64,000 nt of DNA, taken from contig CAJXUY010000002.1 in NCBI GenBank assembly GCA_913060665.1, positions 1 to 64,000 on the forward strand, read 5' to 3'. The stretch comes from an uncultured Oleiphilaceae bacterium (GTDB lineage: Bacteria; Pseudomonadota; Gammaproteobacteria; Pseudomonadales; Oleiphilaceae). Positions 335 to 36,122 of this stretch are shown here, piece by piece. Positions within the stretch are counted from its first letter, which is position 1, and each line of letters opens with the position of its first letter. Below the pieces are notes generated by a model, which saw only the letters and a list, made by a program, of their open reading frames with translations, did no database searches and had not been told where the DNA came from. Made by a program: the position numbers and the translations under genes.

Positions 335-446
335 GGTAACTTCCGCCAGCTACACCGCGGCACACAAGTCCACTGTTTCGGCTGCTCCCTTCCGGGCCTG
401 ACCGGGTCGACAGTATATTGTTGCGTGGGAACCAACGAAAGTCACC
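335..446 (-). ncRNA. ffs: 4.5S RNA, signal recognition particle RNA
   Basis: The minus strand carries the hallmark of the bacterial small SRP RNA: GGTCAGGCCCGGAAGGGAGC followed by AGCCG, with the GGAA tetraloop and the symmetric and asymmetric internal loops that bind the Ffh M domain. Flanking conserved blocks GTTGGTTC..CGCAAC and GTGTGCCG.GGTGTAGCTGG match the E. coli 4.5S RNA order. The ends were set by an 11-bp closing stem, GGTGACTTTCG at the 5' end and CGGAAGTTACC at the 3' end, which pairs throughout with G-U wobbles. The resulting 112 nt is close to the E. coli length (114 nt). The RNA joins Ffh for co-translational targeting of membrane proteins. A T-rich tract follows the 3' end. 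It lies on the same strand as, and about 100 nt downstream of, the rlmJ-like gene. Confidence 0.93.
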
Positions 447-1549: not shown

Positions 1550-1637
<88 letters not shown>

Positions 1638-20530: not shown

Positions 20531-20557
20531 TTATCGGCACAATGTTTGCTTAATTTA
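20531..20557 (-). promoter_or_regulatory. Sigma-28 (FliA) promoter for cheV-cheR
   Basis: Minus strand: TAAA (20554-20557), 15 nt, then an exact GCCGATAA (20531-20538). This is the enteric and pseudomonad FliA consensus TAAA-N15-GCCGATAA. It occupies the same bases as the sigma-54 promoter read on the other strand. Confidence 0.75.
20534..20551 (+). promoter_or_regulatory. Sigma-54 (RpoN) promoter for flgA
   Basis: TCGGCAC-N5-TTGCTT has the invariant GG (-24) and GC (-12) with exactly 10 nt between them. Transcription would begin near 20560, which excludes the TTG start offered by the ORF track at 20546 and supports the GTG at 20594. Confidence 0.65.
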
Positions 20558-20593
20558 CAAGCAATTCCACTGGATACAACAAATGGAGCCAAT

Positions 20594-21364
20594 GTGCCTT
20601 GTTTTGACAACCATAGCGTTAATAAATACTGCTTACTTCTCATTAGCATAGGTCATATTTTAAAAGTTCGCAGAGCTATTTTAGTTCTATCGTTACTTTT
20701 CATGGCTACACCCAGCGTCGCATCGTCGTTTAGTGAGTGGGCATCCCTACAAGCAGAGCAGTTCTTAGAAGACTATAGTGAAAAAATTGCGGCGGACAAA
20801 GGTTACCGTTCTGATTATAAAATCGGCAATATCGATCCTCGACTGAACTTAACCATTTGCAAGACCCCTCTCACAATTGAGTTCCAAAGCAATCCGTTAG
20901 ACCGTAATAAAAACACCCTAAAAGTAGTCTGCAACGACCAAAAACGCTGGTCCATTTTTATCGGAGCTAAAATAGATATTTTTAACAACGTTTGGGTCGC
21001 AAGCCAAACGTTGCCAAGAGGGTATAGAGTCAAAAACTCAGATCTTGAGCGTGCTGAAATTCAAGTTAACCAGTCGCGACAAGGCTACTTTGTAAAGCCG
21101 AATAATATAGTCGGCATGCTTCTACGACGGACCATTCAAGCTGGGGATGTATTTTACCCTGGGTTACTGTTGCCACCTAAAGTTGTTGCGCGTGGCGATA
21201 CCGTTGTTATTAGCGCGCTGTCAGATACAATTTCTGTGCAGATGATCGGAACAGCGTTAAGCGACGGGAAGCTAGGGCAGCAAATATCAGTAAGAAACAA
21301 AAAGTCCGACCGAATTGTGCGAGCAACCATCGTATCGAAAGGAAAAGTTACCGTTCCTATGTAA
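20594..21364 (+). CDS. flgA: Flagellar P-ring chaperone FlgA
   Basis: A protein of about 256 aa exported to the periplasm, where it assists assembly of the FlgI P-ring. After an extended N-region there is a hydrophobic signal (AILVLSLLFMATPSVAS). The mature part holds an N-terminal domain (SEWASLQAEQFLEDY...RLNLTICKTPLTIE) and the C-terminal SAF domain (VWVASQTLPRGYRVKNSDLERAEI, GMLLRRTIQAGDVFYPGLLLPPKVVARGDTV). The start chosen is GTG at 20594, with GGAG 5 nt upstream and downstream of the predicted RpoN start site. No in-frame ATG precedes the signal sequence. First gene of flgA-flgM-flgN. Confidence 0.9.
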   Translation: MPCFDNHSVNKYCLLLISIGHILKVRRAILVLSLLFMATPSVASSFSEWASLQAEQFLEDYSEKIAADKGYRSDYKIGNIDPRLNLTICKTPLTIEFQSNPLDRNKNTLKVVCNDQKRWSIFIGAKIDIFNNVWVASQTLPRGYRVKNSDLERAEIQVNQSRQGYFVKPNNIVGMLLRRTIQAGDVFYPGLLLPPKVVARGDTVVISALSDTISVQMIGTALSDGKLGQQISVRNKKSDRIVRATIVSKGKVTVPM

Positions 21365-21467
21365 CATTAAAACCTTCTGGATAAGGAATTAAAAGTACAC
21401 CTAGCAGAAGCTATGCTAGAAACAAGGTTATTTATAATGACCCTGAAAATAAAATACCTTTTATTGT

Positions 21468-21494
21468 TAAAGTTTTTTAAAATTGGGTCGATAA
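21468..21494 (+). promoter_or_regulatory. Sigma-28 (FliA) promoter for flgM
   Basis: TAAAGTTT (21468-21475), 11 nt, then GTCGATAA (21487-21494), one mismatch from the FliA consensus TAAAGTTT-N11-GCCGATAA. It sits 35 nt upstream of the flgM ATG, giving the expected feedback loop in which FliA drives its own anti-sigma factor. Confidence 0.85.
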
Positions 21495-21529
21495 GTAAAG
21501 CAGAGTCTATAAATTAAAGGTTTACGATC

Positions 21530-21853
21530 ATGGCAATTGATATGAACGGCATCAACCCGAACCAACCGGGCGGCTCCAGAAGCCGGACGGTAGAGGCCCA
21601 AGAGCCTCGACAAAAAATTGACAGCTCAGGGTCTGAAAAGCACGAAGCGCCAAAAGAAAAGCGCGGGGAGAGCGTTAGCTTTAGCGGTAAGGCTAAAGAT
21701 TTCCAACAAATTGAAGCTAACTTAAAGGAATTGCCTGAAGTTGACTCCGATAAGGTAGCAAAAATACGCGCAGCGTTAGAAGATGGTAGTTATAACGTTT
21801 CTTCTGAAAATGTGGCTCAGAAAATGCTTGATATGGAGAAATACATTTTCTAA
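21530..21853 (+). CDS. flgM: Anti-sigma-28 factor FlgM
   Basis: A 107-aa protein with a disordered, charged N-terminal half (MAIDMNGINPNQPGGS..., many E, K, S) and the conserved C-terminal FliA-binding helices (VSFSGKAKDFQQIEANLKELPEVDSDKVAKIRAALEDGSYNVSSENVAQKML). It binds FliA until the hook is complete, then is exported through the basal body. It sits between flgA and flgN with its own sigma-28 promoter upstream and is 11 nt ahead of flgN. Confidence 0.95.
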   Translation: MAIDMNGINPNQPGGSRSRTVEAQEPRQKIDSSGSEKHEAPKEKRGESVSFSGKAKDFQQIEANLKELPEVDSDKVAKIRAALEDGSYNVSSENVAQKMLDMEKYIF

Positions 21854-21864
21854 GAGTAAAGGTT

Positions 21865-22338
21865 ATGCCACTTGCAATTGATAGACTCAAAACTCTGCTA
21901 CAAGAAGATATACAAGACCTCACCAGACTAAGTGAAATACTAAATAAAGAGCGTACAGCCCTTAAAGAGCGCTCTAACGCCTCTATTCAGGCGCTAGCCA
22001 GTGAAAAATCAACCTGCATTAAAACCATAGAGTATAGAGCCAAAGAGAAGGCTAAGTTATTCGTTGATGCCGGTCACCCAATCAAAAAGGGTGAGTTTGA
22101 AAAAATAATATCAGAAATACCAGATTCATCACTTCAATCACTCTGGCGAAAAGTTAACATTGGATTACGGTTCTGCCAGGATCAAAACACGGTTAATGGT
22201 AAAGTTGTTAGCCACTCGCTAAAGCGCGTTAATAAGCTAATGGACATTGTAAGAGGTCAGCATAACAAACCAAACTTATATGGGGCATCTGGTAAAGAGA
22301 GCTCTATTGGCGGCCTTAACTCCATAGCTAAAGCCTGA
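21865..22338 (+). CDS. flgN: Flagellar export chaperone FlgN
   Basis: A 157-aa helical protein typical of FlgN, the chaperone for the hook-filament junction proteins FlgK and FlgL. The N terminus LAIDRLKTLLQEDIQDLTRLSEILNKERTALKERSNASIQALASEKSTCIKTIEY matches the long coiled-coil helix of the family; the C-terminal part (GLRFCQDQNTVNGKVV) holds the conserved N.NG.. segment. Follows flgM by 11 nt and must share its transcript. The stop codon lies inside a hairpin (22333-22356). Confidence 0.92.
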   Translation: MPLAIDRLKTLLQEDIQDLTRLSEILNKERTALKERSNASIQALASEKSTCIKTIEYRAKEKAKLFVDAGHPIKKGEFEKIISEIPDSSLQSLWRKVNIGLRFCQDQNTVNGKVVSHSLKRVNKLMDIVRGQHNKPNLYGASGKESSIGGLNSIAKA

Positions 22339-22429: not shown

Positions 22430-23164
22430 TTATCGTACCGTAATAGTTACATGCGACCCTTCAGAGAAGTTAATATCATTCATATACACACTACCAAATG
22501 ATGGACTGGTAGGTCCCGCGCCTGCTACCCGAATATTCTCTAAGCTTATCTTGTCAATATGAGTGGGCAGCGCTAACTTCATCTTTCCTGGTTCCAGTAT
22601 TTCAAAGCCTGGTTTATTACTATCGTATACAACACCTTCTACCGTTGAATCCCAGGCTAACGCGTTGGTGACGGGTATGAATACGTTGGTCAGATTCTTT
22701 AAAACCTTTACAGAGTCTGGATTTTCTTCATCATTAACCATCTGCATCAAGCCCTGAATATCTTCAGTAAGACCTTGAGCCGATACTCCCGCCAGCGAAT
22801 CATCATCAAGTGATTTTAAGCCTGATTTAGATTTAAATGCGTTAACTTGTTCGGCTGCTGTAGCATCCGTACTGGCATTACTGGCTTGAGTCGTCGCGGC
22901 GAATGCAATAGCAGGTTGTAAGGGGGTCACCACCATTGCGACAAACGCGGCGGTATAACGGTATCTCTTTTGATGCTTGAGCGTTCTTTCCAGGTCTTTC
23001 TCTGAGATCAACCCCTGACAAACAAGAACTTCACCTAGCTTTTGACCTGATGAGCGTTGAAGGGCTAGCGCACCATCTAATTGCTGCTCACTAATGTATC
23101 CGCGATTTACGAGTAATCGCCCAAGACGGGACTTGTCTAGTTGTTTTGTTTTTGTAGCTATCAT
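22430..23164 (-). CDS. MshEN-domain membrane protein, candidate c-di-GMP receptor
   Basis: A 244-aa protein of unknown function with unusual architecture. Residues 13-36 and 42-65 form two 24-residue motifs of the pattern [RK]LGxxLVxxGxIxxxxLxxxLxxQ separated by exactly five residues, which is the c-di-GMP-binding MshEN module normally found at the N terminus of MshE/PilB/GspE ATPases. There is no ATPase here. A basic stretch (KHQKRYRY) and one hydrophobic segment (about 72-90) ending in AFAA follow, so the C-terminal part is probably exported and could even be cleaved. That part begins with LDDDSLAGVSAQG (119-131), a motif type seen in exported pilus-associated proteins, and then a beta-rich region. 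The start is ATG 23164 with GAGG 8-9 nt upstream, not the TTG at 23212. It converges on flgN. Confidence 0.75.
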   Translation of the reverse strand: MIATKTKQLDKSRLGRLLVNRGYISEQQLDGALALQRSSGQKLGEVLVCQGLISEKDLERTLKHQKRYRYTAAFVAMVVTPLQPAIAFAATTQASNASTDATAAEQVNAFKSKSGLKSLDDDSLAGVSAQGLTEDIQGLMQMVNDEENPDSVKVLKNLTNVFIPVTNALAWDSTVEGVVYDSNKPGFEILEPGKMKLALPTHIDKISLENIRVAGAGPTSPSFGSVYMNDINFSEGSHVTITVR

Positions 23165-23515: not shown

Positions 23516-24106
23516 ATGCGTAGCTACATGTCATTTATTAAACCAATTTTACTCTGTCTATCCCTTATATTGAGCGCCAATGCTCTCGCAGCTGCTAACA
23601 CCTCAGCAACAACTGATGTGAAAGTGCTAATCGAAACCAATTACGGAAATATTACGGTCAAACTAAACCCCGAAAAAGCACCCATCACCGTGAAGAATTT
23701 CTTATATTATGTTGAAAGTAGCTTTTACACTAAAACCATATTCCACCGTGTCATCCCAGGGTTCATGATTCAAGGCGGTGGTTTCACCAAAAGCATGGAT
23801 AAACTGCCTACCGAAGCGCCGATCAGAAACGAAGCGTCTAACGGGCTACACAATAATCGCGGTACCATTGCAATGGCTAGAACGAATAATCCACACTCGG
23901 CAACGTCTCAGTTTTTTATCAACGTCGCCAATAACAACTTCCTAGACTACAGCTCTCAAAGTATGGGCTATGCAAGCTTTGGTAAGGTAGTTGAAGGTAT
24001 GGATGTAGTCGATAAAATAGAGCACGTTAGAACAACTAAACGTAACATGCATGCCAATATTCCAGTCGACCCCATCGTCATCAAAAAAATGTCGGTCGTC
24101 AAATAG
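23516..24106 (+). CDS. ppiA: Periplasmic peptidyl-prolyl cis-trans isomerase, cyclophilin type
   Basis: A 196-aa cyclophilin with an N-terminal signal peptide (FIKPILLCLSLILSANALAA), so it acts on proline bonds of periplasmic proteins. Cyclophilin core motifs are present: VKLNPEKAPITVKNFLYYV, FYTKTIFHRVIPGFMIQGGGF, GTIAMARTNNPHSATSQFFINVANN and YASFGKVVEGMDVVDKI. Catalytic Arg (FHRVI) and the Phe/Gln pair (SQFFIN) are intact. Start ATG 23516 with AAGGA upstream. Monocistronic by spacing; the next gene, mnmC, is 58 nt downstream on the same strand. Confidence 0.93.
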   Translation: MRSYMSFIKPILLCLSLILSANALAAANTSATTDVKVLIETNYGNITVKLNPEKAPITVKNFLYYVESSFYTKTIFHRVIPGFMIQGGGFTKSMDKLPTEAPIRNEASNGLHNNRGTIAMARTNNPHSATSQFFINVANNNFLDYSSQSMGYASFGKVVEGMDVVDKIEHVRTTKRNMHANIPVDPIVIKKMSVVK

Positions 24107-34887: not shown

Positions 34888-35156
34888 TGGGGGTATTAAC
34901 CTACACGCTTAAATTAAGGGCATTTTATCACATAGTATATTAACTACGGTGATATAATTCGCTGATTTTTTGAACGAAAAAACATATTTTAAATCGTCAT
35001 TTTTTTGCCGACCGGCAATTATAATCCGTTAACAAACACCATAACCTATTGGTTATAAAACCAAATATAACAATGGCACAGATCTCGCTTATACCTCCTA
35101 AAGTAACGATAACGAGCATTAACAGCAGTAACTTGCCGCTATTCGGGAGCGAGAAA

Positions 35157-36122
35157 ATGACCACAAACAAAAAAGCGGACACCATTGATTTTACCAAGGC
35201 ACGATTAGTATCTACCTACAATGAATTATCCAAACATTTAGCAGATAGCGATGACATAATTTCCCGCCTTACACGCCGATTACAGACGACATTAGATATC
35301 AAGCACATTATCAATATGTTTGTCGAAGAGGTTGGAAAATTAATTAGCTTCGACCAATTTGAATATAGTTGCGAAACAGCAGGTAGTTATCTCACCTCCG
35401 AAAAACGGGCAGCTCACTCCTGTAATTATAAGCTTAAGCTACAAAATGATAACTTGGGCGAGGTCAGCCTGACTCGATCAAAGAAGTTCAAAGAAGAAGA
35501 ACTTGCGATTTTAGAGCGCCTTATGGGGACATTAGTCTTCCCTCTTAAAAATGCGCTAATGTACAAGCATGCATTAGATGCATCATTACAGGATGCATTG
35601 ACGGGCTGCGGCAACAAACGAGCACTAGATGCGGCGCTCACTCAAGAAGCGGAACTTTCAAAACGCCACAATCACCCCTTATCAATCGTCACGATAGATA
35701 TCGATCACTTCAAGAATATAAATGACCAATACGGACACGCCGCAGGCGATGACATACTAAAACAGCTAGTTGAGTCCATGATTAACTCTGCCAGAAAGAG
35801 TGATTTGTGCTATAGAAGTGGCGGGGAGGAATTTATTGTTCTGCTAAACAAAACAAGTGAAGTCGGGGCTCGCATTATAGCGGAGCGGCTTAGGTTGGCC
35901 GTCAGCAAAACCCGCTTTGTTCATGGTGATAAAATAATCCCGCTGACCATAAGCCTAGGCACTGCGACGTTCAGAAATGATGAGAAGCTAGCATCACTTA
36001 TGGAAAGGTCAGACAAAGCGCTCTACAAAGCAAAAAGCAAAGGCCGAAATAAGGTTGTGTCAGCTGAATTTCAAGAGAGAAAACAAGCGACATCTGCTAG
36101 TAAAAACCAACAATCAGCATAA
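35157..36122 (+). CDS. GGDEF-domain diguanylate cyclase
   Basis: A protein of about 321 aa. The N-terminal half (to about 150) contains a helix and a GAF-like region (TLDIKHIINMFVEEVGKLISFDQFEYS...). The C-terminal GGDEF domain has DALTGCGNKRALDAAL, ITIDIDHFKNINDQYGHAAGD-type sequence, the active site SGGEEF and a C-terminal SDKALYKAKSKGRN. An RxxD inhibitory site (RKSD) lies five residues before GGEEF, so product inhibition by c-di-GMP is expected. No EAL domain. The start was moved to ATG 35157, where GGGAG lies 7 nt upstream; the track start at 35049 lacks an RBS. Divergent from the GntR gene. Confidence 0.9.
   Translation: MTTNKKADTIDFTKARLVSTYNELSKHLADSDDIISRLTRRLQTTLDIKHIINMFVEEVGKLISFDQFEYSCETAGSYLTSEKRAAHSCNYKLKLQNDNLGEVSLTRSKKFKEEELAILERLMGTLVFPLKNALMYKHALDASLQDALTGCGNKRALDAALTQEAELSKRHNHPLSIVTIDIDHFKNINDQYGHAAGDDILKQLVESMINSARKSDLCYRSGGEEFIVLLNKTSEVGARIIAERLRLAVSKTRFVHGDKIIPLTISLGTATFRNDEKLASLMERSDKALYKAKSKGRNKVVSAEFQERKQATSASKNQQSA

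Follow-up and report, generated by a model that had tools for sequence, protein, structure and literature searches.

The gene at positions 22430 to 23164 of the window, by which we mean the whole stretch of 64,000 nucleotides that was analysed, encodes a protein in which a c-di-GMP-binding MshEN domain is placed directly ahead of a segment with the anatomy of a signal peptide, which is in turn followed by an exported part. The protein belongs to a conserved gene family, and its front end, the MshEN domain plus the signal-like segment, was also identified before several unrelated exported domains. The placement of MshEN before Sec-type or lipoprotein signals and unrelated exported domains appears to be a module that has not been described so far: a search of mostly open-access literature on MshEN in combination with signal peptides, lipoproteins or the periplasm found no description of an MshEN domain before an exported domain. 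We tentatively favor the reading that c-di-GMP modulates the export or release of the protein, with the receptor sitting on a signal peptide that is cleaved off. The features of the gene, its surroundings and related genes are listed in Table 1.

Table 1. Features of the MshEN gene, its neighbors in the window and genes with a related front end in other contigs and genomes
Feature	Location	Strand	Basis or remark
Whole gene, 244 aa	22430..23164	minus	ATG at 23164, stop 22430-22432; same-length orthologues in genus
MshEN c-di-GMP-binding domain, residues 13-65	22970..23128	minus	NF053729, genome search (same coordinates), structure comparison
MshEN motif 1, RLGRLLVNRGYISEQQLDGALALQ, residues 13-36	23057..23128	minus	conserved in 97 members
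Spacer RSSGQ, residues 37-41	23042..23056	minus	five residues in 97/97
MshEN motif 2, KLGEVLVCQGLISEKDLERTLKHQ, residues 42-65	22970..23041	minus	conserved in 97 members
Signal-peptide-like segment, residues 66-90	22895..22969	minus	family statistics, sequence rules
Variable linker, residues 91-113	22826..22894	minus	21% mean pairwise identity, low pLDDT
SGLKSLDDDSLAGVSAQG motif, residues 114-131	22772..22825	minus	common to DUF6160 proteins
Exported domain, residues 132-244	22433..22771	minus	helices, then beta strands
flgA, flgM, flgN, convergent with the MshEN gene	20546..22338	plus	Pfam; order kept in many relatives
Exported cyclophilin-type peptidyl-prolyl isomerase (ppi), divergent	23516..24106	plus	PF00160, E=1.9e-48; adjoins the gene in many relatives
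GGDEF gene, 12 kb from the MshEN gene	35025-36122		PF00990, E=2.5e-43
Second front-end gene of the window's own genome, 200 aa	G000:C18:65824-66129 (L040, L063:7822-8424)		LTGC lipobox, fibronectin-like exported part
MshEN front end with DUF547	L064:7531-8679	minus	E=3.8e-24; genome of same genus
MshEN front end with Beta-lactamase2-like enzyme domain	L168 (G080:C9:34586-34792)		E=2.6e-19
MshEN front end with Ig repeats	L073
Orthologue without MshEN, between mnmC and flgN	G016, L070:1165-1728		hydrophobic signal-like segment and exported domain kept

A conserved family with two intact MshEN motifs

With the NCBIfam model NF053729 (c-di-GMP_motif), the protein scored 69.6 bits, above the model's cut-off of 38 (E=1.4e-19). 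No Pfam MshEN match was obtained for it at E<=1, so an annotation based on Pfam alone would overlook the domain. Compared with the MshEN motif consensus RLGxxL(L/V/I)xxG(L/V/I/F)(L/V/I)xxxxLxxxLxxQ (PMC12943098), the two 24-residue motifs, which are separated by five residues as in MshEN, deviated only by a Y at position 11 of motif 1 and a K at position 1 of motif 2. Both residues are permitted by the relaxed motif (PMC5013675), and Y is the majority residue at its position, being present in 76 of 97 family members.

The nearest PDB chains in a sequence search were the c-di-GMP-binding domains of PilF, MshE, and PilB. In the predicted structure, the MshEN helices had pLDDT values of about 80, while the mean for the whole model was 59, and the four-helix fold of the model is superposable on the c-di-GMP-bound domains of PilF and MshE, with deviations of 1.2-1.5 A over about 55 residues. 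These matches, to 8pfa, 5htl, and 8pdk, had a Foldseek probability of 1.00 and E values of 0.04-0.1, which are weak because the match covers only 55 of the 244 residues. The model further predicted that a single helix (residues 55-89) links the MshEN domain with the signal segment, after which come a disordered linker and a terminal part rich in beta structure.

As a receptor domain, MshEN has been known for some time and occurs with many partners; reported KD values of other MshEN domains for c-di-GMP range from 14 nM to 0.5 uM (PMC5013675). The likeness to the MshE, PilB, PilF, and GspE ATPases lies in the 53-residue MshEN domain, which was 38-45% identical to the PilF and MshE domains over about 55 residues, whereas here an exported part takes the place of the ATPase and there is no MshEN_C subdomain. 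NfrB of E. coli is likewise a membrane-linked, c-di-GMP-binding MshEN protein (PMC8669469), but its MshEN domain is located C-terminally on a glycosyltransferase, whereas the domain studied here is N-terminal and precedes a signal-like segment.

The initial annotation had described 2 intact motifs with their spacer, no ATPase, a hydrophobic segment with an AFAA end and an exported part that starts with LDDDSLAGVSAQG, all of which were recovered in our analysis. In the gene family, 97 non-identical members had both 24-residue motifs and a spacer of exactly five residues. The 97 members are those that matched a regular expression; 5 further loci that failed it contained the same motifs as far as visible, with Cys or Arg at position 11 of motif 2. 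Orthologues were identified in most of the examined genomes of the window's GTDB family, and the taxa that carry them include Marinobacter, Hahella, Halospina, Tamilnaduibacter, and Oleiphilus.

The ligand-contact positions of MshEN were nearly invariant in the 97 members, and the mean pairwise identity was 62% for MshEN and 59% for the signal-like segment, compared with 21% for the linker. Within the genus, purifying selection acts on the whole length of the protein, with dN/dS values of about 0.04-0.09 that are rough, the synonymous sites being near saturation. Since the family is conserved and every part of the protein is under purifying selection, a chance origin of the motifs is excluded, as is also evident from the NF053729 match. 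We also rejected a start codon 3' of the MshEN domain: the domain shows conservation, and a start at residue 77, the one remaining Met ahead of the AxA site, would leave almost no n- or h-region. The ATG at 23164 has a GAGG upstream.

The signal-like segment and the exported part

Signal-peptide features were scored in the 97 members by sequence rules of our own. An Arg at +4 after the last MshEN Gln, a net positive charge ahead of the apolar run and a Pro at +11 after the conserved Arg were present in all members (97/97 each), and a second Pro at +14 in 90. The 20 residues after the positive stretch were charge-free in 82 of the 97, the uninterrupted apolar run was 10 or 11 residues long in 94, and an [ASTVG]xA pair was located at +17, +19 or +22 in 96. 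In the window protein, the segment is made up of KRYR, an apolar run of 11 residues, PLQP, and AFA-A, with a predicted cut after residue 89. Judged by these rules, the family has the plan of a Sec signal peptide, with a positive n-region, an apolar run of the usual length and an AxA-type site. Two other window proteins agreed by eye with a signal reading, the apolar run being 11 residues in the signal peptide of ppi and 15 in the anchor of ZipA. The 19-residue hydropathy maximum had a median of 1.64, which would be compatible with a membrane span too.

A cleavable signal peptide seems a better description of the segment than a permanent membrane span because the apolar run is short, the Pro at +11 is invariant and the AxA-type site is nearly universal, and also because paralogues have a lipobox at that place and the syntenic orthologue that lacks MshEN keeps a signal-like segment. 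On the other hand, the conservation of the segment comes close to that of MshEN itself, which is unusual for a signal that is discarded and counts against cleavage. We read this conservation as a sign of coupling to MshEN, but it also fits a permanent anchor.

Such an anchor is the basis of the inside-out transmembrane sensor proposed in the initial annotation. In this view, a stable span would hold MshEN inside and the beta domain outside the membrane, so that a c-di-GMP signal is relayed to a periplasmic partner. LapD-type inside-out c-di-GMP signaling combines a cytoplasmic receptor with a periplasmic output, and a bitopic protein would in principle resemble it, although the receptor domain differs and, if the signal here is cleaved, there would be no permanent link across the membrane. 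The high conservation of the segment, the single continuous helix predicted from MshEN through it, and the positive residues ahead of it, which favor an N-inside topology, all speak for a bitopic sensor. Evidence against it comes from the same short apolar run, invariant Pro and AxA-type site that point to cleavage, and from the lipobox of the paralogues, which would free the output from the sensor. The hydrophobic segment of that proposal is present, but its permanence is uncertain, since a cleavable signal would part sensor and output, and we consider a bitopic sensor possible but rather unlikely.

The exported domain starts with GLxxLxDxEMxxVxxQG, a motif that DUF6160 proteins also carry after their signal peptide. 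Beyond the motif, 2 helices and 6 strands were predicted with fair confidence. A structure search with this fold gave no PDB match below E=0.001, a sequence search of the PDB gave only chance-level PR10 matches and '9xfv bacteria pilus (like)' (E=0.21), and a comparison of the DUF6160 profile with solved structures found none. The exported part may at most be called a small beta protein of the periplasm or the cell surface. Membership in DUF6160 (PF19657) was rejected. The curated cut-off was not reached, with weak matches in 3 of 32 orthologues (best E=2.3e-4), and a profile comparison aligned no more than 18-21 residues at 35-42% probability. Only the short motif LxxLDDxxMxxVxGQ, directly after the signal peptide, is common to both, and the signal peptides of DUF6160 proteins are ordinary ones with no MshEN ahead of them. 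The window's genome (G000) contained 7 DUF6160 matches, on contigs C1, C2, C3, and C16 (L231-L237), and their motif resembles, by eye, a double-glycine-type leader (ELxxVxGG).

Gene neighborhoods and the probable link to PA3740

In family f1, the order cheR-cheV-flgA-flgM-flgN-[gene]-ppi-mnmC was widely kept, and ppi or mnmC still adjoined the gene where the flg genes were not adjacent. In Pseudomonas-type genomes, the gene was instead located between rpsP-rimM-trmD and xerD-dsbC-hom-thrC (the trmD-rplS / xerD-dsbC-hom-thrC region), and its direct neighbors there, as seen in L211, were genes for a thioesterase and a Na+/H+ antiporter. In yet another family, it adjoined trxB and biotin genes. 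The position near flagellar genes is thus specific to certain lineages and argues only weakly for a flagellar role. The flgA, flgM, and flgN genes and the more distant GGDEF gene were found where the initial annotation had placed them. Its suggestion that the gene replaces flgZ was rejected, since the genome keeps a YcgR/FlgZ-like protein with PilZNR (4.8e-13) and PilZ domains (G000:C1, about 295540; L243) and the Pseudomonas-type orthologue is not located beside flgAMN. In total, the genome had 14 PilZ matches, the YcgR-like protein among them. At the gathering threshold, an Rfam search of the window found no c-di-GMP riboswitch; it returned a bacterial small SRP RNA (341-437, minus strand), a tRNA (1550-1634, plus strand), and nothing else.

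The Pseudomonas-type locus matches the PAO1 gene order from PA3735 to PA3746, with the MshEN gene in the place of PA3740. Given that order, the occurrence of these proteins in Pseudomonas at the rplS / xerD-dsbC-hom-thrC locus would place the family in the PA3740 group. Based on the gene order and on a reported peptide that fits the family, the window gene is very probably an orthologue of P. aeruginosa PA3740, although it stands beside flgAMN rather than at the Pseudomonas locus.

PA3740 is reported to be a c-di-GMP-binding MshEN protein, cited with the binding motif 55LxxxLxxQ62 (PMC5013675), and its binding peptide is given in a review as LKKALKKQTNLR (PMC8789108). This peptide matches the end of motif 2 together with the start of the signal segment, the corresponding sequence in L206 being LGRALKKQNNLR; exact-peptide searches of the genomes found no carrier. 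The published work on PA3740, as the probable orthologue, supports c-di-GMP binding by the window protein. PA3740 was also listed as an MshEN gene that is upregulated in surfing cells (PMC7122816). The protein is termed a PilZ-domain protein in PMC8335546, in contrast to MshEN in PMC5013675 and PMC7122816. Because its very probable orthologue has previously been recorded as an MshEN protein that binds c-di-GMP (PMC5013675, PMC8789108, PMC7122816), the protein is not, in the strict sense, the wholly new effector type that had been suggested.

Reuse of the front end and possible control by c-di-GMP

The exported parts that follow the MshEN-signal front end comprised the family domain, DUF547, Ig repeats, Beta-lactamase2, and several short uncharacterized proteins. 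In paralogues with the same front end, a lipobox (LTGC, LVGC or LAGC) was located at the place of the AxA site, followed by low-complexity, Ig-like or fibronectin-like regions. If lipoprotein signal peptidase cuts these forms, the product would be separated from MshEN. Among the sampled genomes, the front end was concentrated in the window's order with scattered cases elsewhere in the class; a limited number of candidates was scored per genome, and counts of absence are not firm. The orthologue without MshEN (L070) fell inside the family in a phylogeny of the exported domain, where its branch was long and moderately supported.

The persistence of this homologue at the same locus in one genome would agree with MshEN being a passive leader or a c-di-GMP sink that does not affect the exported part. 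We regard this as quite improbable in view of the nearly invariant ligand contacts, the purifying selection on the domain, and its junction to signal segments before several unrelated domains. It is also improbable that MshEN serves as a docking tag, which would bind the inner-membrane platform of a T2SS or T4P, as in GspE and PilB, and bring the exported protein there, while c-di-GMP would tune the contact. The best-known MshEN domains are those of the GspE, PilB, and MshE ATPases (PMC5013675), and several such ATPases are encoded in the window's genome, but no secretion or pilus genes were located beside the gene in the relatives examined. Both ideas were rated less likely than a bitopic sensor or control of export.

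Control of export or release by c-di-GMP is our preferred reading, if a tentative one, because the MshEN domain is conserved, the segment follows the signal plan, paralogues have a lipobox, the exported parts vary, a syntenic orthologue lacks MshEN, one helix (55-89) is predicted to run from MshEN into the signal, and PA3740 is reported to bind c-di-GMP. The MshEN receptor would be made in the cytoplasm directly ahead of a Sec-type signal peptide, and its last helix would continue straight into the signal helix. Binding of c-di-GMP could then alter how the helix is presented to the membrane or the Sec machinery, or how easily it is cut, and the ligand state would thereby determine whether a small beta-domain protein is exported to, or released into, the periplasm or the cell surface. 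Once the signal is cut, the MshEN-signal fragment would remain on the cytoplasmic side. Cleavage itself, like any control that c-di-GMP exerts on export, is inferred. The finding that deletion of PA3740 did not lower biofilm in fleS or fleR mutants with raised c-di-GMP (PMC8335546) counts against this reading.

For PA3740, which binds c-di-GMP but has no assigned role, control of export would offer a concrete hypothesis. To our knowledge, c-di-GMP control of secretion acts on machines (ATPases, synthases) or on the proteolysis of a surface protein. If a receptor is fused to the signal sequence, the messenger would act on individual exported proteins and may control whether or when they leave the cell. 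A broader version, in which MshEN ahead of Sec or lipoprotein signals is a general device by which c-di-GMP, acting either on translocation or on cleavage, directly gates how many unrelated proteins are exported, appears doubtful to us; it would cover this beta-domain family, the DUF547 proteins, the Ig-like lipoproteins, and the beta-lactamase-like proteins. As a separate observation, the NCBIfam model 'invert_tail' touched 2 of the lipobox paralogues, with scores below its cut-off.
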